A stretch of 50,342 nt of DNA, taken from contig CALGZA010000024.1 of assembly GCA_937934595.1 (NCBI GenBank), positions 1-50,342 of the forward strand, given 5' to 3'. The translations under genes and the position numbers were made by a program. Source of the stretch: an uncultured Verrucomicrobiales bacterium (GTDB lineage Bacteria; Verrucomicrobiota; Verrucomicrobiia; Verrucomicrobiales; Akkermansiaceae). How positions within the stretch are numbered: the first letter of the stretch is position 1; each line of letters begins with the position of its first letter. Positions 8,641-47,614 of the stretch are shown piece by piece. The notes under the pieces are model-generated. The model was not told where the DNA came from. It was given only the letters and a program-made list of their open reading frames with translations, and did no database searches.

Positions 8641-8724
8641 TAGCAAAATAAATCAGCTCTGCTGCTGCTTCCAAATATATTGAAACGACTACCAACCCAG
8701 TATAACTGTGAAAATGGTATTACT
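8641..8724. repeat. Partial copy (C) of a dispersed non-coding repeat
   Basis: This stretch matches the 3' third of the two longer repeats flanking rpsA (45105-45330 and 47408-47614). Shared blocks include AATCAGCTCTGCTGCTG, TCCAAATATATTGAAA and ATAACTGTGAAAATGG, in the same orientation. It begins just after the gltB terminator. The 5' two thirds of the element are missing. Confidence 0.75.
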
Positions 8725-10185: not shown

Positions 10186-10836
10186 CTAAAACATTGGCTC
10201 ACTATGAAAACTCATAGTATCCCCAGAAAAAGGATGCCTAAACCTTAACTCAGTAGCATGTAACTTCATCGCCACCCCCTCTAACGCATTACCATAAAAA
10301 GGATCCCCTACTATCGGAACCCCAAGCCCCCTCTCATGTGCAGAATGAACACGTAGCTGATGTGTACGCCCAGTCAATGGCTCAAACTCAACACGAGTCA
10401 TGCCCCCCTCCACCGAAAGCCTCCTCCACTCAGTAATACCAACCTTCCCATGCTCCTCATCATAAATCTGAAATGGACGGTTATCCACATCCAACCGAAA
10501 CGGAAGCTCAATACGCCCTGAATCCAAATCTAACAAACCATCTAAAATAGCTACATAACGCTTATATACCTGCCTCTCCAAAAACTGAATCGATAAATCC
10601 CTATGCCCCTCAGAAGAAAACGCCAAAACCATAAGACCCGAAGTATCCATATCTAACCGATGCACAGCAGGCTGCTTAATGCAATCAGGATACAACCCCC
10701 TCACCCGATGACTCACTGAGTCCAACTTCTCTACCCCCCTCCCAGGAATAGACAGCAACCCACTAGGCTTATTAACAACCACAATATCACCATCCTGATA
10801 AACAACCTCTAATAAATCCATCCGATCATCTTCCAT
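10186..10836 (-). CDS. rluA: RluA-family pseudouridine synthase
   Basis: This 216-residue enzyme converts uridine to pseudouridine in RNA. The catalytic motif HRLDMDTSGLMV (59-70) places the active aspartate at Asp62. VVVNKPSGLLSIPGRG (19-34) and GRTHQLRVH near the C-terminus are also family hallmarks. The length and lack of an S4 domain fit RluA itself (23S U746 and tRNA U32 in E. coli) better than RluC or RluD, but the target cannot be fixed from sequence alone. It has an ATG start with an A/T-rich upstream region and no Shine-Dalgarno sequence. It is convergent with the membrane protein at 8849 and lies upstream of the paralogous secreted genes. Confidence 0.85.
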   Translation of the reverse strand: MEDDRMDLLEVVYQDGDIVVVNKPSGLLSIPGRGVEKLDSVSHRVRGLYPDCIKQPAVHRLDMDTSGLMVLAFSSEGHRDLSIQFLERQVYKRYVAILDGLLDLDSGRIELPFRLDVDNRPFQIYDEEHGKVGITEWRRLSVEGGMTRVEFEPLTGRTHQLRVHSAHERGLGVPIVGDPFYGNALEGVAMKLHATELRFRHPFSGDTMSFHSEPMF

Positions 10837-10882
10837 AGAAATAAATCAACAAATGCGCACCAAAAGACAACCAGCAAAAAAT

Positions 10883-11533
10883 TTACTTCACTAATTTAAC
10901 AGATTTAGCCTCTAAATCAGTCCAATATATCACAGATACTTCATCACTCTCCTTGATACCATCTAACATGAAAGTCTTCTGCTTCCCTATACTACTATAA
11001 CCAGAACTCAACACCTCTTTACCATCTCGTAACAAGCTAACAGACTTAATATACTTAAAGTCTCCAACAACCTTCACCCCGCTGGAATTATACTCAGCTG
11101 TGAACGAAGGAAATTTAACCGGTTTAGCGCCTTTCTTAAACTTAATCTTTCTCCTCTTCGTCTTAGACCCAACCATCACATCCACTGTCGCGCTCAACTT
11201 AACATCATTCAAATTATCCTTAAAACTCGCATTATACACAATCAAGCTTACTCGTTTACCATCTTTACTTATATTATTTACATGGTGCATCACCCACCCT
11301 TCAGCCTTAAATGAACTCCTATCAATACTAGTCATATTCTCCCCCTGAAGAAAAAAAGTCACCTTTAAACCTTTCTTATAGCCAAAAGGCCTATCCATAA
11401 AACCCACCTCATCAGGTAATCCAGAAGAGTAAGCCACGGTAACAGGAATCGCTGTCACCTCAGACTTCACTTTCGCAGACAAACAACCAACCATTAGCCC
11501 CAACGTAGTGAAAAAGTAAGTTAATAATTTCAT
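10883..11533 (-). CDS. Secreted unknown protein, paralog 1 of 3
   Basis: This 216-residue exported protein of unknown function has clear relatives at 12036 and 12762. The N-terminus (MKLLTYFFTTLGLMVGCLSA) is a signal peptide; the MVGC block could be a weak lipobox. All three share, in order, TAIPVTV-YSSGLPD, a KKGL-TF-LQG block, SFKAEGWV, the YN-F--NL-DVKLSA block, a KI-FKKG--PVKF block, GVKVVG, and a C-terminal segment ending YW-D---KSVKLV. The pattern is beta-rich with no catalytic signature I recognise. Conservation of cores with divergent surfaces suggests an extracellular binding or structural role. The remains of a CAP gene lie just upstream on the same strand. Confidence 0.75.
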   Translation of the reverse strand: MKLLTYFFTTLGLMVGCLSAKVKSEVTAIPVTVAYSSGLPDEVGFMDRPFGYKKGLKVTFFLQGENMTSIDRSSFKAEGWVMHHVNNISKDGKRVSLIVYNASFKDNLNDVKLSATVDVMVGSKTKRRKIKFKKGAKPVKFPSFTAEYNSSGVKVVGDFKYIKSVSLLRDGKEVLSSGYSSIGKQKTFMLDGIKESDEVSVIYWTDLEAKSVKLVK

Positions 11534-11740
11534 ATTATTACTAAATTACACATCATAACGAGAGATACAAAGCAAAAAATAAAGACTCATTGCTCCTAAT
11601 CCATAAACACAATAAAAACACTCATTAAACAAGTTCTCTATAATACATCCAGATTCACCTCTAACCATCTCTCAGCCAGCACTAATAAAGAAAAAAGCAA
11701 CTCTGCTCCTTCACTGAAACGGTTACAATTTAAGAGAGCA

Positions 11741-11960
11741 AAAAAATAATCACATCCCACCGTCAAAACCAAACAATGGCGTAGCATATACAGTATTATC
11801 AGAACCCCTAGCTACACCAACCCCCTATGGCTCCAGAGTCGTAAAATATTCTTCTTATGCAAAGGGTGATTTCATCCAGTTACGCGTAAACCTCAAAGCT
11901 AAATCATCCTTATATACCCAAACATAAGCAACTTTCTCACCATCCTCATATACTACATCC
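11741..11960 (-). pseudogene. Duplicated 3' fragment of the CAP-domain gene
   Basis: About 210 bases match the 3' end of the CAP lipoprotein gene at 14426-14965 nearly base for base. Shared blocks include ATCACATCCCACCGTCAAAA and TTATCAGAACCCCTAGCTAC. Two single-base indels disrupt the frame: CCCCCGTATGG in the intact gene is CCCCCTATGG here, and AAAGGTGATTT is AAAGGGTGATTT. Homology fades beyond about 11955, so the 5' two thirds are gone. It cannot make a CAP domain. The rest of the 11534-12035 gap holds no gene that I can see. Confidence 0.9.
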
Positions 11961-12035
11961 ATCAGAGCACGTGTTTATCGCAAAACCAAAAAAATCATTA
12001 CTCTTTAAAAATCCCCCCTTTAGCAACTATATGAA

Positions 12036-12683
12036 TCATCGAACTAACTTAACTGACTCGACCTTAATTTCCGTCCAATAAGTCAAACTTATCTCATCAG
12101 TATCTTTAATTCCTTCAAGCGTAAAAGTCTTAGTTTTTCCTAATTCTCTATACCCCCGACTAAATTTCTCACGACCATCTCGGACAACACTTATAGACTT
12201 AATCATTTCATGTTCACCTACAACTTTAACACCGCGCTGATTGACCTCCACAGTAAATCCCAAAAATTTTATTGGCTTGTCTCCTTTCTTAAAAAAAATC
12301 TTTCTCGTTTTAGATGAGATTCCATACATCACCTCTATTGCAGCAGAAAGCTTAACATCATCCAAATTACCTTTGAAGCCCTCATTATAAAGATTAAAAT
12401 TCACACTCTTACCATTAGTAACTAAATCTCTATCTTGGAAAACCCATCCCTCGGCTTTAAAGGACTTCTCATCAACACTCATTATATTGTTTCCTTGAAG
12501 TAAAAAAGTTAGCTGCAGACCTTTCTTATAATAAAATGGCCCGTCGCCAAAGCTTACATCGTCAGGCAGACCAGAAGAATATTTAACGGTAACAGGAATC
12601 GCGGTAATCTTTGGCTTATCTTGCGCAGACAAAAAACAAGCCATCAGCCCAAGCGAAGAAATAACATAAGTGAATAATTTCAT
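12036..12683 (-). CDS. Secreted unknown protein, paralog 2 of 3
   Basis: This is the middle member of the three-gene family described at 10883. I take the start at 12681-12683, giving MKLFTYVISSLGLMACFLSA, because it aligns with the signal peptide of paralog 1. An in-frame ATG 12 codons upstream would add an unlikely leader. About 215 residues follow the family block order, including KKGLQLTFLLQG, SFKAEGWVFQD, KIFFKKGDKPIKFLGFTVE and VESVKLVR. It is closer to paralog 3 than to paralog 1 (shared NQRGVKVVGE and KFLGFT). The Cys in the signal peptide lacks a preceding small residue pair, so lipidation is doubtful. No Shine-Dalgarno sequence. Composition is less skewed than in neighbouring core genes. 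Confidence 0.75.
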   Translation of the reverse strand: MKLFTYVISSLGLMACFLSAQDKPKITAIPVTVKYSSGLPDDVSFGDGPFYYKKGLQLTFLLQGNNIMSVDEKSFKAEGWVFQDRDLVTNGKSVNFNLYNEGFKGNLDDVKLSAAIEVMYGISSKTRKIFFKKGDKPIKFLGFTVEVNQRGVKVVGEHEMIKSISVVRDGREKFSRGYRELGKTKTFTLEGIKDTDEISLTYWTEIKVESVKLVR

Positions 12684-12761
12684 AGTTCTAACATATATAC
12701 ATATTAACGTGCGAAACAAAGTAAAAAAATAATGGATGAAAACCCCTGTCCTTTAAAAAAA

Positions 12762-13412
12762 TCATCTAACCAGCTTAACAGTTTTAACCTTAAAGTCTGA
12801 CCAGTAAGTCACTCTAATTTCATCAGTATCTTGAATTCCATTAAACATAAATGTCTTACTATTTCCATCGCTCATATCCCTACTACTAAATTCATCACGG
12901 CCATCACGGACAATGCTTATAGCCTTAATCAGTGCTTGTTCACCTACTACTTTAACCCCACGCTGATTAGCCTCCAGAGTAAACCCCAAAAATTTAACTG
13001 GCTTGTCTCCCTTCTTAAAAAGAATCTTCGTCGTCTTAGTTGTGATCCCAAACAACACATCTACTGCAGCAGAAAACTTGAAGTCATTCAACTTACCTTT
13101 AAAACCTTCGTTATAAAGAGTCACAACTAAGTTTTTATCACTAGATTTTTTACAAACACTATATTTCATCGTCCATCCCTCGGCTTTAAATGACTTCTCA
13201 TCTACACCTAATATGTTTTCTCCTCGCAGGAAGAAGGTTAGCCCTAAACCCTTCTTATGATTTGATGGCTTATTAATGCGATCTAACCCATCTGGCAAAG
13301 CAGAACAGTAAGTAATTATAACAGGAATCGCTTTCAAGTCAGACTTGACTTGCGCAGACAAACAACCAGCCACTAACCACAAAGATGTAAAAACGTAAAT
13401 CAATAAATTCAT
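12762..13412 (-). CDS. Secreted unknown protein, paralog 3 of 3 (possible lipoprotein)
   Basis: This third paralog has about 216 residues from the ATG at 13410-13412 (MNLLIYVFTSLWLVAGCLSA), chosen to match the other two; upstream in-frame ATGs exist. LVAGC is a good lipobox, so this copy may be a lipoprotein. The family blocks are retained (KKGLGLTFFLRGEN, SFKAEGWTMKY, KILFKKGDKPVKFLGFTLE, VKTVKLVR). It ends 78 bases upstream of paralog 2, probably in one transcript. It lies directly beside the decayed transposase, whose left end is about 70 bases upstream. Confidence 0.75.
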   Translation of the reverse strand: MNLLIYVFTSLWLVAGCLSAQVKSDLKAIPVIITYCSALPDGLDRINKPSNHKKGLGLTFFLRGENILGVDEKSFKAEGWTMKYSVCKKSSDKNLVVTLYNEGFKGKLNDFKFSAAVDVLFGITTKTTKILFKKGDKPVKFLGFTLEANQRGVKVVGEQALIKAISIVRDGRDEFSSRDMSDGNSKTFMFNGIQDTDEIRVTYWSDFKVKTVKLVR

Positions 13413-13478
13413 AATGCTTAGCATTTTATAGACTACAACCAATGAAACAAGACAAAAAATAAACTCACTTATCCTGAT

Positions 13479-14418
13479 TTAGGGCGTCCTCATTTTTAAA
13501 TGCTGGAAAAACAGCCTTGTACTTTTTATCAAACTATGGCACTTGAGCCGAATGGCTCAAAAAAAAACAAGATCAAATGAATATGCTGGAGGACTCCCTG
13601 ATGTTATTAAATCCTTTGAGATATTAGCAGATCCTCGTAATTGTAGGGCGAAACGCCACTACTTTGGTGAGATCATCTTTATCGCTCTTACCGCAATGAT
13701 CGCTAATTGTTACGGATTCAAGGACATGGAGGTTTTTGCTAAGTCAAAAGAGATTACAGCAATACCAAAATTACTTAAGAAATTAGATCTTAAAGGACAT
13801 ACCGTCAGCCTAGATGCCATGGGTTGCCAGTAAAAGATAGCCTAGGAGATTTATATTGCCGAAGCCGATTACCTATTAGCTCTCAAACCTAATCATGGGA
13901 ACTTATACATACAGGCGGAAGCATTTTTCAAAGATGCTCACTTCATCAAACAAGAAGCAGCCAAAGGTAAGATATTTAGTCATGACGATAGCTCTAGTAA
14001 AGGCCATGGAAGGCTTCAAAGAAAAATACTATTATGCACCGATGCTATATACTGGATTGATGAAAAAGAACGTAAGCACTGGCTAGGACTAAAGAGTATT
14101 TTATGCATTAAAGAGCACAGGAAAGCAGGGAAATATGATACCACAATAAACCGTAGATACTACCTCACAAGCCATGGACCTAAAGCTACAATGCTACAGA
14201 GATTGGTGCGCGAGCATTGGCATATCGAGAATCAATGCCATTGGGTGCCAGACATGGTTTGGGGAGAAGATAATTCACGTGTAAGGAAAGGTAATGCCAC
14301 AGAAAATATGGCTTTACTAAGAAAGTTAGCTCTAAATCTGATCAAGATCTGTAAGACAGTGAAGAGCTCTATAAGAATTAAACGCCTAAGAGCCTGCTTA
14401 GACGAATCCACACTAGAA
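13479..14418 (+). mobile_element. Decayed ISAs1-type insertion sequence
   Basis: The element starts near 13479, where TTAGGGCGTCCTCATTTTTAAA (13479-13500) resembles the outer end of ISAs1-type elements. It contains a broken transposase (next entry). The right end is missing: sequence identity with the CAP-fragment copy at 11741 begins at the AAAAAATAATCACATCCC junction (about 14419), which marks where IS DNA stops and resident DNA resumes. No matching inverted repeat is visible on the right. The element lacks the extreme A/C strand bias of its surroundings, consistent with a later arrival. Confidence 0.7.
13543..14418 (+). pseudogene. ISAs1-family transposase pseudogene
   Basis: One reading frame carries the remains of a DDE transposase of the ISAs1 type. 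The N-terminal associated domain (SFEILADPRNCRAKRHY, IIFIALTAMIANCYGF) leads after only about 68 residues straight into KEITAIPKLLKKLDLKG and DAMGCQ. In intact relatives roughly 100 or more residues including the first catalytic Asp lie between, so there is an internal in-frame deletion. TAA (after GCQ, 13831-13833) and TAG four codons later interrupt the frame. It then continues as ADYLLALKPNHGN, HGRLQRKI, REHWHIENQCHWVPDMVWGEDNSR and NMALLRKLALNL. The last codons before TAG at 14460 read into the end of the opposing CAP gene. It is not functional. Confidence 0.9.
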
Positions 14419-14425
14419 AAAATAA

Positions 14426-14965
14426 TCACATCCCACCGTCAAAACCAAACAATTGCGTAGCATATACAGTATTATCAGAACCCCTAGCTACACCAACCCC
14501 CGTATGGCTCCAGCGTCGTAAAATATTCTTCTTATGCAAAGGTGATTTCATCCAGTTACGCGTAAACCTCAAAGCTAAATCATCCTTATATCCCCAAACA
14601 TAAGCAACATTCTCACCAGTCTCATACATCCTATAATCACCCATCATAATTCGTGAGCGCTTACCTCCACCCTTGTGATTAACCACCCGTTTACCCCGCT
14701 TCTCAAAAACCCCTATCAGATATTCACTATGCCTTCGCGCCAGACCAGAAAGCTCAGAACTGTAAGACAAGGATTGTAAACCAGCAGCACGCCTCTGCGC
14801 ATTCACACGTGCCACAATCCTCCCCTCCAAGGTCTTAGTTTCCACAGAAACAGAGCGATTAGACTTAGCTATCTCCTCGGCCTCACCAAGATCTTGACCT
14901 ACACACCCACATACAAAAATCACAAGTGCTAATACTAAACTATTCCAGTAAACTTTAACGTGCAT
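14426..14965 (-). CDS. CAP/SCP-domain lipoprotein
   Basis: This 179-residue exported protein has a lipobox (FVCGC, Cys21) and a CAP domain (cysteine-rich secretory/antigen 5/PR-1 fold). Family marks are the first helix (LEGRIVARVNAQRRAAGLQ), HSEYL, GENVAYVWG, the W--SPLHKKNIL block, and HTGVGVARGSDNTVYATQLF at the C-terminus. Bacterial CAP proteins are exported; their biochemical role is mostly unknown. The ISAs1 remnant abuts the 3' end, and the transposase frame overlaps the last 35 bases on the other strand. A damaged copy of the 3' third lies at 11741-11960. No Shine-Dalgarno sequence. Confidence 0.85.
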   Translation of the reverse strand: MHVKVYWNSLVLALVIFVCGCVGQDLGEAEEIAKSNRSVSVETKTLEGRIVARVNAQRRAAGLQSLSYSSELSGLARRHSEYLIGVFEKRGKRVVNHKGGGKRSRIMMGDYRMYETGENVAYVWGYKDDLALRFTRNWMKSPLHKKNILRRWSHTGVGVARGSDNTVYATQLFGFDGGM

Positions 14966-16500: not shown

Positions 16501-19032
16501 ATGATGATATACCTACTGGTTTTCCTATCTGGCTTCTGCGCCCTCATCTATCAGGTCCTATGGATGAAGCAACTCGGCCTTCTATTCGGTAACACATCAC
16601 ACGCAGCTGGCACCACACTAGCTGCATTCTTCACCGGTCTCGCCCTAGGGAGCTACTATTGGGGGAAAAAATCTGCCACGTCAAAAAACCAACTACGCAC
16701 CTACTCCTACCTAGAAATAGGAGTGGCTCTAACCGCCCTAATTTACTTCATCATCCACTGGGGATACCTATCCATATACCCATTAGTCTTTCAGAACCTA
16801 AATTCAGCTCCCTTGCTAATAGCAGTCAAATTCCTCTTAGCCTTAATACTCATATTCCCACCTGCATTCTGCATGGGCGGAACCATCCCCATCATTGGGC
16901 AACACGCCATTAAAAACCCATCCCAATTCGGATCCAAATCCGCCCTTCTATACGGAGTAAATACCCTCGGTGCCACACTCGGTGCATTACTCGCAGGCTT
17001 CTTTATGCCTCTCTGGTTTGGCTTCCAACTCACCTGCATCATCGCTATCGCTATCACATGCTTCATTGCCGCCATCGCATTCTTTATTTCACGTAATACA
17101 AATGAAAGAAAATCCCCTGTCCATGAAGCATCCACCGTAAATCCATCCACAGAACATAACGCCACTCAACCCCTCAAACAAAAAAATAAAATCTCACTTG
17201 CCCTAGTTTGCTTCATCTCAGGATTTGGAGTCCTAGCCCTAGAAGTACTCTGGACACGAATGTTCGCTCTCATACTAGAAAACTCAGTCTACACATTCGC
17301 AGCCATCCTTGTAGTCGTCCTCTTATGCCTTGCAGGAGGCGCCGTAATCAGCTCCATTCTCGCTCGCAGATCATGGCAACCCAGCACTGTCCTCACCACT
17401 TTACTCATACTCAGCGGACTAGCCATAGCCCTAACACCTAATGCTTTCATGCATCTAACGGATTCTTTTCAGTTCCAGTCTCCCAGAGAAACTTGGGCCA
17501 ACTTCGTCCTATTCATATTCAAAAAATGCACCCTCATCATAGGCCCTCCAGCTCTATTACTAGGAACTATTTTCCCATACCTTCTCAAAACTCAAGAAAC
17601 ACACACCAAATCACCAGGAAAAACATTAGGAAAACTCGCCACTATAAACACAATAGGCGCTGTCATAGGCTCCATAACATGCGCCTTCCTCCTTCTCGAA
17701 ATATTCGGACTATGGCAAAGCATGCAAATCATCAGTGCCATATATTTCCTCATAGCCCTTACCATATCCACCAACAATAAGCACACTAACATCATAACCA
17801 AAGCAGCCAGCATCGCAGGAATCACCCTCCTTTTCACCACCTTAAATCCAACTCACCTACCCACCACTGGAATCACCGAAGAAGCACAAAATCATACCAT
17901 ACTCAAAACTTGGGAAGGTAGCGACTGCACAGTATCAGTAATCCGTGACAACAATGGTATATCCATAAAAATAAACTCCGACTACGGACTAGGATCAACC
18001 AACGGCAGAATCAGACAAGCCTGCCAAGCAGAGATCCCACTCATGCTAAAGCCAGATACCAAATCAGTCTTCTTTCTCGGCATGGGAACCGGCGTCAGCG
18101 CTGGCGCCGCACTTTCAGATAAATTCCCAAACATCGAACAAGTCATCACCTGTGAACTTTCCCCTCACGTAATCGAAGCATCAAAAGAATTCATAACCAA
18201 TGTAAACGGCTCAGATCTTACTCAAGGATTGTTCTCAGACCCACGATCAAAAGTCCTCGCAGAAGACGGAAGACACTACCTCATGGCCACCAAAGAAAAA
18301 TTCGACATGATTAACGCAGACCTCTTTGTCCCATTCAGATCAGGCGCAGGTAGCCTCTACACAAAAGAACACTTCCAAAATGTAAACCAAAGACTCAATG
18401 AAAACGGCATCTTCGTTCAATGGCTACCCACATACCAAGTCACTGAATTCGAATTCCACGTCATAGGAAAAACCATGCTCCAAGTTTTCGATCAAGTATC
18501 GCTCATCCGCTGCGACTTCGAATCATTCAACGAAATCGTTGCCTTCGTTGGCCATAAAAACAATACACCACTTCCTCGCTGTGATATCGACGACTCACAA
18601 ATCAAAACAAAATTCCTCAGAAGTAACGGCAAAGACGATATCTACTCCACACTCAACCCTCAAACCGCTCTCATCTATTACGCAGGAAACATCTCAGAAG
18701 CTAAAGACAAATTCGAAAAATACCCCATTAACACCGACGACAAACCCATCATAGAATACATGTCTCCCAGACAATACAGAAACACAGGTGAAGATAAAAC
18801 ACCCTGGTTCGTTGGCCCGTTCTTACTCAAATTCATCAAAGACCTACAAGAAAACTGCCCTCCTGAAAAAGACCCCATCCTAAAAAACCGCGCTCCATCT
18901 AACATCCTGCTCCCCCGCGCCGGCAATGCCTTCCAAGAAACAAAACTTTGGGCTCACTTCGGAAACAACACCGAAACACAACGCTCCTGGAAAGAATTTA
19001 CTATCAACTGGATCAACAACACAAAAGAATAA
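16501..19032 (+). CDS. Polytopic membrane protein fused to spermidine-synthase-like domain (copy 1)
   Basis: This 843-residue protein starts with two hydrophobic halves (about 1-200 and 235-430, roughly five to six helices each), joined by a polar linker. The halves look like an internal duplication: FLSGFCALIYQVLWMKQLGLL is echoed by FISGFGVLALEVLWTRMFAL. A soluble domain from about 455 has a Rossmann methyltransferase-like aminopropyltransferase fold, with FFLGMGTGVSAG near 522 and EDGRHYL near 587. The canonical substrate block after that, DS-DP in true spermidine synthases, reads ADLFVPFRSGAGSLYT, so polyamine synthesis is doubtful. The substrate is unknown. A close paralog lies at 40998. 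Confidence 0.82.
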   Translation: MMIYLLVFLSGFCALIYQVLWMKQLGLLFGNTSHAAGTTLAAFFTGLALGSYYWGKKSATSKNQLRTYSYLEIGVALTALIYFIIHWGYLSIYPLVFQNLNSAPLLIAVKFLLALILIFPPAFCMGGTIPIIGQHAIKNPSQFGSKSALLYGVNTLGATLGALLAGFFMPLWFGFQLTCIIAIAITCFIAAIAFFISRNTNERKSPVHEASTVNPSTEHNATQPLKQKNKISLALVCFISGFGVLALEVLWTRMFALILENSVYTFAAILVVVLLCLAGGAVISSILARRSWQPSTVLTTLLILSGLAIALTPNAFMHLTDSFQFQSPRETWANFVLFIFKKCTLIIGPPALLLGTIFPYLLKTQETHTKSPGKTLGKLATINTIGAVIGSITCAFLLLEIFGLWQSMQIISAIYFLIALTISTNNKHTNIITKAASIAGITLLFTTLNPTHLPTTGITEEAQNHTILKTWEGSDCTVSVIRDNNGISIKINSDYGLGSTNGRIRQACQAEIPLMLKPDTKSVFFLGMGTGVSAGAALSDKFPNIEQVITCELSPHVIEASKEFITNVNGSDLTQGLFSDPRSKVLAEDGRHYLMATKEKFDMINADLFVPFRSGAGSLYTKEHFQNVNQRLNENGIFVQWLPTYQVTEFEFHVIGKTMLQVFDQVSLIRCDFESFNEIVAFVGHKNNTPLPRCDIDDSQIKTKFLRSNGKDDIYSTLNPQTALIYYAGNISEAKDKFEKYPINTDDKPIIEYMSPRQYRNTGEDKTPWFVGPFLLKFIKDLQENCPPEKDPILKNRAPSNILLPRAGNAFQETKLWAHFGNNTETQRSWKEFTINWINNTKE

Positions 19033-40968: not shown

Positions 40969-40997
40969 CACACTCTGTCTGTGATTTGCTTTCCCCC

Positions 40998-43670
40998 ATG
41001 GCCAATAACACAGAAGAAATAAATAATAATACTCAGAGCGGAATCCCCACCGCTCTGACTCTTGTCTTCATTTCCGGCTTCGTAGCTCTAATCTACCAAG
41101 TATTATGGATGAAGCAGCTCGGCCTACTCTTCGGAAATACCTCCCACGCCACTAGCGCTACACTTGCTTCATTCTTTGCCGGCTTAGCCACAGGCAGCTG
41201 GTTAATTGGAAAAAAAGTATCACTATCTAAAAACCCCATGCGCACATACGCATGGCTAGAAATAGGTATCGCTGTCACCGCCTTACTCTACTTCATCATC
41301 CTTGCTCTATTCCAAAGCATCTACCCATCCATTTATCAAAGCCTCGGTACCGGCAGCATTCTCATCATCATCAAATTCATACTCGCACTCATTCTCATCT
41401 TCCCACCTGCATTCTTCATGGGCGGCACCATCCCAGTCATGGGCCAATTCATGATCCGTCAGCGTGACTCCTTCGGAAAAATATCCGCCATGATGTATGC
41501 CACCAACACCCTAGGTGCTGCTACAGGAGCTGCCCTAGCTGGGTTCTTCTTACCCATCTGGCTAGGCTATAACATCACCTGCATAATAGCCATCTCACTC
41601 TCTCTATTCATCGCTATTTTAGCCTTTAAATTATCTCGCCACCCAGCACCAACTTACCCAGATCATTCTACCCCAAACACCAAGAAAACACACGTAAACC
41701 CTATCCCGCAAATGTCGCGCCAAGAACGCCGTGCACTGGAAAGAAAACCTACTAAAACAAAACTCCCTACCACTAAAGAACAATCCCTAGATAACACTAC
41801 CACACCTAAGCAAAAAACACTAACCGCACTCTGCTTCCTCTCCGGATTCGGCATACTCGCACTTGAAGTTCTATGGACACGCATGTTCTCTCAAGTATTA
41901 GAGAACTCAGTATACACCTTCGCCATCATCCTAGTAGTAGTCCTCATATGCCTTGCCATAGGAGCACTAGCCAGCTCATTCCTCGCTAGACTTAAAGCCC
42001 CACCCTTATTAGTCATCTCACTCCTCGTCCTATCCGGTGCTATTACCATTGCACTCACACCCACCATCTTCTTAAATCTAACCAACCAGATGGAACTAAT
42101 CACATCCACCAAAAGCTGGGCACACTACATCCTCATCGTCTTCAAAAACACCTTCCTCACTCTCGCTCCATCAGCACTCACTCTCGGCATGATATTCCCC
42201 TACCTCATGAAAATCGAGGAAACCACTCTCAAGTCACCAGGCCTTTCACTTGGCAGATTAGCCACCATAAACACAATAGGAGCCATCCTCGGAGCATCAC
42301 TCTGCGGATTTATCCTCCTAGACTGGCTCGGCATCTGGCACAGCATGCAAATGATCGCCGTCCTCTACCTTCTATCCGCTATCAGCATCCCACTAAACTG
42401 GAAACTCCCCAGCATCGTAACCAAAATCACCTGCATCACCACCCTACTGATAGTCATCATCGCTCCTGACTTCAATAACATCCCAGCTATAAGCTCCAAC
42501 CCCACCAATAAAATAAACAACCTAGAAAAAGTCATAGAAACTTGGGAAGGGAGCACCTGCAAAGTCTCAGTAACTAAAAGCAACCTCGGCACAGCAATCA
42601 AAATAAACTCTGACTACAGCCTAGGAAACACAGCAGCTTACATATCAGAAAAACTCCAAGCTGATCTCCCTCTATTCATCTACCCAAAAACACAAAACCT
42701 CTTCTTCCTCGGTGTAGGAACAGGAATTACAGCAGGTAGCGCACTTGATCCCAGACACCAAAATGTCAAAAAAATAGTAGCCTGCGAGCTCGTGCCAGAA
42801 GTCATCACTGCCGCTAAAAAATACATGACCAACATCAACGGATTCGACACAACAGGCGGCCTATTCACAGACCCAAGAGCAAATATCATAATAGAAGACG
42901 GCCGCCACCACCTCATGGCTACCAATGACAAATTCGACATGATCAATGCAGACCTCTTCGTCCCATTCCGCTCCGGGGCAGGTAGCCTCTACTCTAAAGA
43001 ACACTTCATCAACTCAAAAAAACGCCTCACACCAGACGGCGTCTTCGTCCAGTGGCTACCTCTCTATCAGCTCACAGAATATGAATTCTCTACCATAGCA
43101 CATACCATGATCGATGTCTTCGACCAAGTCTCGCTATGGAGACACAACTTCCAGCCAGGCCACGAACTAGTCGCCCTCATCGGACATCAAAAAGACCAAC
43201 CACTACCCCCATCTAACATAAACAGCCTGCCAGATAAAAAAACAGCCGTCCTCGGCAAAGATCACCTTGATCTCATGAGACTCAACCTACCACTAGATCC
43301 TCAAACCATCCTGCTCTTCTACGGAGGGAACCTATCGGCATCACGCTCTCTATTTGAAAACTACCCCATCAATACCGATAATCACCCCGTCATCGAATAC
43401 CAAGCTCCCAGAAACCATCGCTCAAGCAATGACAACTCACCCCCATGGTTTGTAGGCGAACCTTTCGCTAACTTAATCGACAAAATACAAACCATCTGCC
43501 CACCAGAAAAAGACCCCTTACTCATAAACAGAACCAGCACCAACCGCAAACTACCCATCGCAGGGAGCGCCTTCCACAGAGCTCGTATTGAAGCTAATAA
43601 AAATAACCCGTCAGCCACCAAAAAAGCATGGCAAAAATTCCTCTCAAACTGGCTTCCAGACCAAAACTAA
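40998..43670 (+). CDS. Polytopic membrane protein fused to spermidine-synthase-like domain (copy 2)
   Basis: This ~890-residue paralog of the protein at 16501 starts at the ATG giving MANNTEEIN; TTG four codons upstream is an alternative. It shares QVLWMKQLGLLFGNTSHA in the first membrane half and FGILALEVLWTRMFSQ in the second. A longer charged linker (MSRQERRALERKPTKTK) joins them. The soluble domain has FFLGVGTGITAG (near 567), EDGRHHL (near 632) and, in place of the canonical acidic substrate block, ADLFVPFRSGAGSLYSK. The two copies are therefore altered at the same position, which argues for a shared non-polyamine substrate. The stop is followed by the tandem repeat at 43701. Confidence 0.82.
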   Translation: MANNTEEINNNTQSGIPTALTLVFISGFVALIYQVLWMKQLGLLFGNTSHATSATLASFFAGLATGSWLIGKKVSLSKNPMRTYAWLEIGIAVTALLYFIILALFQSIYPSIYQSLGTGSILIIIKFILALILIFPPAFFMGGTIPVMGQFMIRQRDSFGKISAMMYATNTLGAATGAALAGFFLPIWLGYNITCIIAISLSLFIAILAFKLSRHPAPTYPDHSTPNTKKTHVNPIPQMSRQERRALERKPTKTKLPTTKEQSLDNTTTPKQKTLTALCFLSGFGILALEVLWTRMFSQVLENSVYTFAIILVVVLICLAIGALASSFLARLKAPPLLVISLLVLSGAITIALTPTIFLNLTNQMELITSTKSWAHYILIVFKNTFLTLAPSALTLGMIFPYLMKIEETTLKSPGLSLGRLATINTIGAILGASLCGFILLDWLGIWHSMQMIAVLYLLSAISIPLNWKLPSIVTKITCITTLLIVIIAPDFNNIPAISSNPTNKINNLEKVIETWEGSTCKVSVTKSNLGTAIKINSDYSLGNTAAYISEKLQADLPLFIYPKTQNLFFLGVGTGITAGSALDPRHQNVKKIVACELVPEVITAAKKYMTNINGFDTTGGLFTDPRANIIIEDGRHHLMATNDKFDMINADLFVPFRSGAGSLYSKEHFINSKKRLTPDGVFVQWLPLYQLTEYEFSTIAHTMIDVFDQVSLWRHNFQPGHELVALIGHQKDQPLPPSNINSLPDKKTAVLGKDHLDLMRLNLPLDPQTILLFYGGNLSASRSLFENYPINTDNHPVIEYQAPRNHRSSNDNSPPWFVGEPFANLIDKIQTICPPEKDPLLINRTSTNRKLPIAGSAFHRARIEANKNNPSATKKAWQKFLSNWLPDQN

Positions 43671-45019: not shown

Positions 45020-45104
45020 AACTCCATCTCTGGGAGTGGTTCTGGATAAACTTGTCATGCAAAAACAATGCTTCTCCAACAAACCAAAATCAAGCCTATT
45101 ATAA

Positions 45105-45330
45105 CATTTGAACTGCTAGAATGGATTGATAGCACAACAAGATAGCACAACAAGATAGCAAGAGTAGCAAGAGTAGCAAGGCACGTGGAAAGCGCATAGT
45201 GGACTTTGCAACTGACCAATAACGAAGCTAATCTTGATATATTGTTTTGCTCTTCAAGAAATCTGCTCTGCTGCTGTTTCCAAATATATTGAAATTACTA
45301 TCAACCCAGAATAACTGTGAAAATGCCAGT
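45105..45330. repeat. Dispersed non-coding repeat, copy A
   Basis: About 226 bases match copy B (47408-47614) nearly throughout in the same orientation. Shared blocks include AGAATGGATTGATAGCACAA, AAAGCGCATAGTGGACT, GCTAATCTTGATATATTG and CAGAATAACTGTGAAAATG. Copy A has an extra internal tandem stretch of GATAGCACAACAA and AGAGTAGCA units. The two outer ends resemble each other (AACTGCTAGAATGG and AACTGTGAAAATGC). No ORF is conserved between copies. It lies downstream of the rpsA terminator, between rpsA and the lyase gene. Confidence 0.92.
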
Positions 45331-45370
45331 ATTACAACCTAGCAGCAAACAAATAGCCCACCCCCATATT

Positions 45371-45400
45371 AAAAAAGCCGCCCAGATAACTGGACGGCTT
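45371..45400 (-). terminator. Intrinsic terminator of rpsA
   Basis: On the minus strand GCCGTCCAG pairs with CTGGGCGGC (one G-U) around a 4-base loop and is followed by a T run (45371-45376). It lies about 65 bases after the rpsA stop. Confidence 0.85.
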
Positions 45401-45463
45401 AAATAAACTTTTATTAAAGCACCATACCTAATGAAATCACCAGATACAGTAACCTTCTAAAAT

Positions 45464-47152
45464 TTAGTCTTCTGATGGACTCCACTCTTCAGTAGATGGA
45501 GAAGCAAGGTTGAATGCCTGCTCTAGACCCACCATCTCACTTGATGGCTTAAGCGTCTCGAATGACTGAGACTCCTTCTGAAGCTGCTCAGCACTATACT
45601 CAACTGCCTTAACGGAAAGCCCAATTCGGCGCTCAACTTTATCTACCTTGATAACACGTGCTTCAACATCATCTCCAACCTTGAGAACATCTTTCACCTT
45701 CTCAACGTGTTCCTCAGATAACTGAGAAATATGTATCAGTCCGTCAATGTCATCCTGCAGATTCACAAACGCTCCAAATGAAGCTATCTTAGCAACGGAT
45801 CCCTTAACCATGTCGCCAACCTTGAACTTGTCATCAATGTCTGACCACGGATCGTTCTCAGCCTGCTTGATGCCAAGTGAAACTCGCTGATTCTCCTTAT
45901 CAATGCTAAGCACAACCGCTTCCACTTCATCACCCTTCTTAAGAACTTCTGATGGATGGTTAATCTTACGCGTCCATGAAAGATCAGATACGTGAATCAT
46001 ACCGTCGATACCTTCTTCTAGCCCAACAAAGGCTCCATAAGTAGTAAGGTTACGCACTGCACCAGTGATGCGCTGGCCAATTGGGTAACGCGCCTCAATC
46101 TCGGTCCATGGATTAGCCTCTAACTGGCGAACTCCAAGAGAAATCTTCTGCTCCTCGATAGAAATACCAAGAACAACTGCCTCAATCTCCTGATCGATTT
46201 CAAGAACGTCTGATGGACGTGTGATTCGCTTAACCCATGATAGCTCAGATACGTGCACAAGACCCTCAACACCTTTCTCAATCTCAACAAACGCACCGTA
46301 AGGTAGAAGCTTAGTAACTTTACCACGAACACGCTGACTGATTGGGAACTTCGCCTCGATGTCTTCCCAAGGATTATCCTGCATCTGCTTAAGGCCAAGT
46401 GATACTCGCTCCTTATCTCTGTCAACATCTAGGATCTGCACCTCTAAAGACTTGCCAATGTGTAGCATCTCAGATGGATGTGAAATCCTACCCCAGCTCA
46501 TGTCCGTGATGTGAAGAAGTCCGTCCATCCCCTGAAGATCAACAAATGCACCAAAATCAGTGATGTTCTTAACAAGTCCTTCTACCTTATCACCAATCTT
46601 AACAGTCTGAAGAAACTCCTGACGTAGCTCACTGCGCTCCGCCTCGATCACTTCTCTACGTGAAACAACTACGTTCTGACGCTCGTCGTTAGCTTTCACT
46701 ATCTTAAATTCAAATACCTTACCAACATACTCAGTAAGATCTTTTGGCGGGATGATGTCTACCTGTGAACCAGGAAGGAATGCCTCCACTCCAACGTTCA
46801 CCATAAGACCACCTTTTACAACACTCTTGATCTTACCTTTAACAAGACCACCATCTTCGTAAACTTGGACAATCTTCTCCCAGTTCTGTCTATGTGCTGC
46901 TTTCTCCTTTGAAAGAACGACCATACCGTCGTCATTTTCAAGTTTCATGAGAAGCACTTCTACAACGTCTCCTAATTCGAACTCCTCGTCTTCGAACTCT
47001 GATACTGGAATAGCTCCCTCTGACTTATATCCGATATCAACGAGGATCACCTGTTGACGGATGTCAATGATAGTACCGTTAACGATGCTACCTTCTTTAA
47101 ATTCGCGGAATTTTGAATCAATCAAATCCGACAGTTCAGCATTAATGCTCAT
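45464..47152 (-). CDS. rpsA: 30S ribosomal protein S1
   Basis: This 562-residue protein has six S1 RNA-binding domains, the number in E. coli S1. They begin at KEGSIVNGTIIDIRQQ, GGLVKGKIKSVVKGGLM, GDKVEGLVKNITDFGAFVDL, SQRVRGKVTKLLPYGAFVEI, GQRITGAVRNLTTYGAFVGL and GDMVKGSVAKIASFGAFVNL. S1 brings mRNA to the 30S subunit, which is relevant because genes in this window lack Shine-Dalgarno sequences. Its own ATG is preceded by AACAATATAAAAAT. The usual upstream partner cmk is absent. Base composition is more balanced than in flanking genes. Two direct repeats flank the transcription unit. Confidence 0.95.
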   Translation of the reverse strand: MSINAELSDLIDSKFREFKEGSIVNGTIIDIRQQVILVDIGYKSEGAIPVSEFEDEEFELGDVVEVLLMKLENDDGMVVLSKEKAAHRQNWEKIVQVYEDGGLVKGKIKSVVKGGLMVNVGVEAFLPGSQVDIIPPKDLTEYVGKVFEFKIVKANDERQNVVVSRREVIEAERSELRQEFLQTVKIGDKVEGLVKNITDFGAFVDLQGMDGLLHITDMSWGRISHPSEMLHIGKSLEVQILDVDRDKERVSLGLKQMQDNPWEDIEAKFPISQRVRGKVTKLLPYGAFVEIEKGVEGLVHVSELSWVKRITRPSDVLEIDQEIEAVVLGISIEEQKISLGVRQLEANPWTEIEARYPIGQRITGAVRNLTTYGAFVGLEEGIDGMIHVSDLSWTRKINHPSEVLKKGDEVEAVVLSIDKENQRVSLGIKQAENDPWSDIDDKFKVGDMVKGSVAKIASFGAFVNLQDDIDGLIHISQLSEEHVEKVKDVLKVGDDVEARVIKVDKVERRIGLSVKAVEYSAEQLQKESQSFETLKPSSEMVGLEQAFNLASPSTEEWSPSED

Positions 47153-47210
47153 ATTTTTATATTGTTTTTTTGGTTAAGGTTATGTTCCTTGGTTTTCATT
47201 TTTTTCCTAT

Positions 47211-47243
47211 AAAAAAACCTCGTAGCGCCAATGAGAACCGAGG
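47211..47243 (-). terminator. Terminator-like hairpin in the rpsA leader
   Basis: On the minus strand CCTCG (47239-47243) and CGAGG (47218-47222) form a short stem with a 16-base loop, followed at once by seven T. It sits about 60 bases upstream of the rpsA ATG. No gene precedes it on this strand within the window, so it is either an attenuator of rpsA or the end of an unseen short transcript. The stem is only 5 bp, so it may be chance. Confidence 0.4.
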
Positions 47244-47407
47244 CTATAACAACCTCATCGGCAGGAAAAATATCAAGCGCTTTTTAGTCTCTTCAGGCCG
47301 CTTAGCAAGCAGAATGTATTCAATTGAGAGCTTTTTCACACTTTTTCACACAATTATCACCAAATTTACCCCTCCAAATAAAAATTCTCCCTAAAAAGAC
47401 AGTAATC

Positions 47408-47614
47408 CATTTGAACTGTTAGAATGGATTGATAGCACAACAAGATAGCAAGCCTAGCAAGGCAAGAGGAAAGCGCATAGTGGACTATGCAACTGACGAA
47501 TAACGAGGCTAATCTTGATATATTGTTTTGCTCTTCAAAAAAATCAGCTCTGCTGCTGTGTCCAAATGCATTGAAACTACTATCAGCCCAGAATAACTGT
47601 GAAAATGGTAGTAT
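47408..47614. repeat. Dispersed non-coding repeat, copy B
   Basis: About 207 bases are closely similar to copy A. B lacks part of the internal AGTAGCA tandem stretch of A and has AATCAGCTCTGCTGCTG as in partial copy C at 8641. It lies about 255 bases upstream of the rpsA start. Thus A and B bracket rpsA as direct repeats with their outer ends about 2.5 kb apart. I see no transposase, target-site duplication or conserved ORF. Confidence 0.92.

Follow-up and report, generated by a model that had tools for sequence, protein, structure and literature searches.

What is the ~210-bp non-coding sequence that stands in two direct copies on either side of rpsA, and does its position there matter? The window, that is the whole stretch of 50,342 nucleotides analysed, is one contig (C24) of a 3.15 Mb, 123-contig genome of the genus Rubritalea. 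An initial annotation of it described copies A and B around rpsA and a 3' partial copy C elsewhere, and offered three identities for the repeat: a non-autonomous mobile element, a structured RNA or a recombination site. All three copies are present in the same orientation, as seen in both the sequence and covariance matches (Table 1); their loci had been placed correctly, but about 6 bp were missed at each end. The absence of a shared ORF also holds, with no ORF of ≥100 aa spanning any copy, as does the variation in an internal AGTAGCA/GATAGCACAACAA tandem: additional GATAGCACAACAA/AGTAGCA units make copy A longer. The outer ends had been recognized as alike in direct orientation (AACTG..AATGG); this likeness is real, but a stronger terminal inverted repeat (TIR) had been overlooked. 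Copy B has the layout TAA/T-CCATTTGAACTGTTAGAATGG...CCAGAATAACTGTGAAAATGGTA/GTA, slashes marking the element boundaries: an AC is missing from its left TIR and its target duplication has decayed. Copy C terminates in ...GAAAATGGTA/TTA.

Table 1. Coordinates, in the window, of the three element copies, their parts and the intervening gene
Feature	Position	Strand	Evidence
Copy A, full element	45102-45331; 45099-45334 including target duplication	+	sequence; covariance match 192 bits, 45099-45331
Copy A, target duplication TTA	45099-45101 and 45332-45334		
Copy B, full element	~47406-47610; with flanks 47403-47613	+	sequence; covariance match 240 bits, 47402-47613
Copy B, left TIR	47406-47428	+	alignment, 69 full copies
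Copy B, right TIR	47588-47610	+	alignment, 69 full copies
Copy B, apical core hairpin (GCATAGTGGACTATGC)	47476-47491	+	sequence; helix 7 of consensus structure
Copy C, 3' fragment	8641-8719; with TTA 8641-8722	+	weak covariance match, 49.6 bits
rpsA, gene between copies A and B; 562 aa with six S1 domains	45464-47152	-	Pfam S1, 5.5e-92

Elsewhere in the window, a broken DDE_Tnp_1 transposase with internal stops (13479-14420) is flanked by ~210-bp direct copies that are 94-99% identical (11741-11950 and 14417-14626). On the minus strand, paralogous ORFs arranged in tandem (10186-13442) are 63-79% alike in DNA, and two long ORFs 24.5 kb apart (16501-19032 and 40986-43670) share stretches of 70-81% DNA identity.

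The repeat is not peculiar to this locus. With copy B as the query, 40 genome copies are recovered at E<1e-75; a 16-mer from the core hits the genome 95 times and its reversed control twice, and ~105 separate copies in sense orientation were detected with a covariance model in 1.3 Mb of scanned genome. Our final set of 109, which may be slightly inflated by a few duplicate contig-end pieces, comprises 105 covariance matches and four remnants of 25 bp; many contigs of the assembly end within a copy. The element is thus a ~205-bp intergenic sequence with ~110 copies in this Rubritalea genome, spread over more than 55 contigs beside ordinary genes such as rpsA. None lies within an ORF of ≥100 aa, and the flanking gene pairs are convergent in 29 cases versus divergent in 9. 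Since the copies around rpsA are just two of ~110, all co-oriented, rpsA is not special: it is a bystander outside the element, and the placement around it is incidental. Recombination between A and B could in principle duplicate or delete the 2.3-kb segment; for the option of a recombination site we found no evidence.

The anatomy of the copies is that of a transposable element. The 69 full copies, with a mean pairwise identity of 91.8%, end in imperfect TIRs of ~25 bp, TACCATTT...AAATGGTA, of which the left one reads TACCATTTGAACTGTTAGAATGG and the right one, as its reverse complement, TACCATTTTCACAGTTATTCTGG; the true boundaries are TNA/TACCATTTGAACTGTTAGAATGG...CCAGAATAACTGTGAAAATGGTA/TNA. 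TIR ends match 195 times in the genome, versus once for a control. The target duplication, deduced from the flanks of copies, is a 3-bp TNA: the triplet is identical on both sides in 49 of 67 copies (chance about 0.40; p 4e-8), whereas at 4 bp only 2 of 67 agree. These 49 triplets are TAA (24), TTA (19), TCA (4), TGA (1) and GTA (1), and an identical TNA duplication is found in 22 of 26 copies of R. profundi. At C36:69075 one copy is inserted, head to tail, in the TTA of another. The solo remnants of 25 bp (L222:4132-4156, L228:8539-8563, L072:17676-17700 and L140:17344-17368) have matching triplets and appear to have arisen by deletion between the GAATGG/AAATGG repeats at either end. The TIRs, the TNA duplications, the many copies and the cases of nested or tandem insertion therefore support the option of a non-autonomous mobile element.

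Beyond its ends, the element has a conserved interior. Its fold has a terminal stem, a long internal stem, a hairpin with three tandem G.A mismatches and a second small hairpin. In an alignment of 24 Rubritalea copies from five genomes (several subfamilies, nearly all 204-206 bp), 94% of cells are paired, versus 30-47% in slid controls; double compensatory changes occur in 27 of 56 pairs, and in 17 of 19 pairs of the internal helix, outside the TIR. Across 34 copies from six families such changes are seen in 56 of 58 pairs, with a covariation score of 0.761 (shuffled 0.233; slid 0.14-0.22). The consensus folds far better than shuffles, with z -5.9 as single-stranded DNA and, as RNA, z -4.7 for one strand and -5.3 for the other. 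The core, CAAGGCGCGAGGAGGGAG-hairpin-CGACTGACGAGCAACGC, contains three 5'-GA-3'/5'-GA-3' mismatches with G-C pairs between them, and its residues are nearly invariant: G73 (32/34), A74 (34/34), G99 (33/34) and A100 (32/34).

The folded strand can be told from the other. Counted on the element (+) strand, G.U cells exceed A.C cells by 102:15 in Rubritalea and 168:34 across the order, an excess part of which may stem from pair choice on that strand; for pairs common to both strands it is still 24:11. RNAalifold yields -51.0 for the element strand versus -25.5 for the reverse, and single-sequence folds are more stable on the + strand in 27 of 29 cases. Within this genome the ratio is inverted (A.C 92, G.U 38), with an excess of G>A and T>C among the mutations of its copies; this fits neutral decay of resident copies under the local mutation bias. 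We infer that the fold is selected in spreading lineages and not in resident copies. Covariation thus points to a strongly conserved single-strand fold that may act as RNA or as single-stranded DNA: the structured-RNA option was right in so far as such a fold is conserved.

The family extends well beyond this genome. As the initial annotation had suggested looking for, relatives carry further copies, namely R. profundi SAORIC-165 and uncultured Rubritalea, and many genomes of the same genus have none. A covariance model built on Rubritalea detects the element in 34 of 142 genomes and 18 of 39 genera of the order; a third model, which extends the family to other classes of the phylum, detects it in at least 18 of 338 genomes, a lower bound because the filters were strict and few candidates were scored per genome. 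Between genera the terminal repeats are unrelated (TAATACC, TTAGACC, TAGTGT, TTAGAACC), yet always pair, and the core persists while they change completely. The element matched neither a known RNA family nor a known repeat: Rfam 15 gave no match for the copies in the window, in Rubritalea or for 20 distant copies; a search for the core in plasmids, viral contigs and paper texts returned no useful match; and no description of the repeat family was found in the open-licence literature. This is apparently an undescribed family of structured MITEs spread through Verrucomicrobiota.

The copies in this genome are further distinguished by their orientation. The folded strand is the C-rich (lagging) strand in 108 of 109 copies, the four solo remnants included. 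Only C2:15323 departs from this; it is located where the cumulative skew of contig C2 reaches its minimum, and the copies to its left and right are oppositely oriented. This region (L070:15323-16500) is an origin-like skew minimum at which the orientation of the element flips; the genes near it encode a decarboxylase and a sugar transferase, and dnaA was not found there. Strand asymmetry in this genome is extreme throughout, as in the whole of the window (1-50342): genes lying on the element strand have a third-codon GC skew of -0.73 and those on the other strand one of +0.73, and the skew of intergenic DNA is -0.36. For comparison, the genome-wide skew effect is typically ~2.5% according to SkewDB (PMC8941118). 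Transcription cannot explain the orientation because genes are split 406:424 between the strands, and coding directions in the flanks are 57:44; gene direction was rejected as a cause on these counts. Skewed base composition acting on an asymmetric target motif fares no better: the motif asymmetry is limited to a weak C at +/-5 from the TNA, with an estimated effect of less than ~two-fold. Nor would strand-specific mutation purge wrong-way copies in the observed sense, as G.U tolerance would favour the G/T-rich strand. As an orientation control, no other repeat family with ≥5 copies was present in the sequence scanned.

The orientation rule is not universal, because copies of R. profundi, where skew is weak (~0.1), are randomly oriented (13:14) and those of another genome (G143) are mixed. 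In a complete genome from another taxonomic family (G029), the copies form two orientation arcs with which 24 of 27 agree (a level reached in 25 of 5000 random cases), and a second model recovers the same arcs with 3 exceptions. Among single loci of other genomes with an absolute skew ≥0.15, a cut-off picked after the data were seen, the folded strand is on the C-rich side in 7 of 7.

No autonomous partner sharing the TIRs was found in the genome and the R. profundi sequence scanned: none of the DDE_Tnp_1 loci of the genome has these TIRs, and no transposase of the IS5 or pogo/Fot families is linked to them. A 2.7-kb IS630 element of R. profundi was considered as a partner and rejected, as its matching 'TIRs' belong to the copy it entered. 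It lies within an element copy (L221:9132-11670, with an assembly N gap inside), of which 123 bp run on beyond the apparent IS630 end, and it has its own ends, TA/ACTCGC, and its own TA target duplication; it is a passenger nested in the copy. A second candidate from R. profundi (L235) proved to be a copy broken by an assembly gap.

In terms of class, the ~25-bp TIRs and 3-bp TNA duplication identify the element as a MITE-like non-autonomous transposon, and it is short, non-coding and of high copy number (~205 bp, ~110 copies). The 3-bp TNA, in place of TA, sets it apart from IS630-derived MITEs. Members of the IS200/IS605 group, which rely on an HUH transposase, are not known to have a TIR or a target duplication; both are present here, which speaks against an IS200/IS605-derived element (PATE). 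Probably, then, this is a MITE-type transposon whose fold serves its spread, mobilized in trans and inserted under the direction of the replication fork. A DDE-type transposase would be the simplest agent: acting in trans, it would cut TNA with a 3-bp stagger, thereby generating the TNA duplication, and join the ~25-bp inverted ends. Unlike an ordinary MITE, one strand would be kept foldable into a fixed three-part structure and, given selection on spreading lineages and not on resident copies, the fold would most likely be needed for mobility, as RNA or as extruded single-stranded DNA, and not for the host. Coupling of insertion to replication may be the reason why, in this Rubritalea genome, nearly all copies have the folded strand on the lagging (C-rich) strand, reading towards the origin. 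More tentatively, and with rather less than even confidence, the family might be a phylum-wide, undescribed superfamily in which a structured core swaps its terminal repeats, probably together with the transposase, and integrates one way at the fork.

Several other explanations have to be weighed against this transposon reading. The element might be a host-useful structured RNA or mRNA 3' element (a terminator, stabiliser or protein-binding RNA) that was copied around and whose fold is kept by host use. The strand-specific, covarying fold with its tandem G.A core and the intergenic, often convergent settings would suit this. The excess of A.C over G.U among resident copies, however, signals no purifying selection on their folds, orientation follows replication and not the neighbouring genes, many genomes of the genus do without copies, and mobility is indicated by the target duplications and by the exchange of terminal repeats; we therefore regard a host RNA as unlikely. 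One-strand selection, G.U tolerance and the near-uniform orientation would also be expected if the folded + RNA were copied at forks by a reverse transcriptase in trans, with the nascent 3' end as primer. Such RNA-templated spread is very improbable, as precise TIRs and a fixed 3-bp TNA duplication mark DDE transposition. Those inverted ends and that duplication count against single-stranded DNA mobility at the fork in the manner of IS200/IS605 or attC, with hairpins as the substrate. The selected strand, moreover, lies on the leading-strand template, whereas it is the lagging-strand template where single-stranded DNA is exposed. Strong folding as single-stranded DNA speaks in favour of such mobility, as does an orientation locked to replication, which has been reviewed for IS200/IS605 (PMC5371812); overall we hold this reading very improbable as well.

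A narrower alternative concerns the orientation alone and is otherwise compatible with the transposon reading: the lock might arise from selection removing wrong-way copies and not from biased insertion. In its favour, the lock is present under strong skew, both here and at the seven loci that reach the skew cut-off, and absent in weak-skew R. profundi. Yet old fragments and even the 25-bp solo remnants are locked, and R. profundi tolerates both orientations; we consider selection a possible but somewhat doubtful cause.

MITEs are usually viewed as ends plus filler. Under the transposon reading, it is the interior whose structure is kept from family to family, whereas the ends are replaced, so some property of the folded strand would matter for spread. 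Orientation is near-total in this genome and missing in a sister species, a contrast that provides a natural test of whether transposons read the replication fork; a covariance model is now available for annotating the family.

Several known systems share parts of this picture. ERIC and Correia (nemis) elements are intergenic palindromic MITEs of ~100-150 bp that fold when transcribed; they differ from the present element in sequence and plan and are not known to have the conserved tandem G.A core. Groups of the IS5 family produce 3-bp TNA target duplications. Fot elements produce TAA (PMC7386202), and the TNA or TAA duplication is the likeness of our element to IS5 groups and pogo/Fot. The R0 and R2 repeats of Pseudomonas fluorescens, candidate MITEs, are likewise short and intergenic with inverted ends; these ends are common to resident IS elements, so that their partner IS is known, unlike here, and tail-tail gene pairs are preferred, while the part of that account drawn on here reports neither replication orientation nor deep structural covariation (PMC2718517). 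The RUP, BOX and SPRITE repeats of Streptococcus pneumoniae resemble the element as small repeats with TIRs pairing in a folded transcript and convergent-gene enrichment; they are mobilised in trans, with RUP ends resembling an IS630, and are presumed parasitic (PMC3049150). Unlike the present family, however, they are confined to few streptococci, no core that covaries across a phylum while terminal repeats turn over is reported for them, and 60.8-63.3% (~61%) lie on the leading strand, in line with coding bias, as against 108 of 109 locked copies here (PMC3049150). Orientation that tracks chromosome replication is shared with IS200/IS605 and with Tn7 in its TnsE pathway, which achieve it through interaction with the lagging strand or the clamp (PMC5371812); those elements are autonomous, whereas here it is a non-coding 205-bp element with a TNA duplication that is so oriented.
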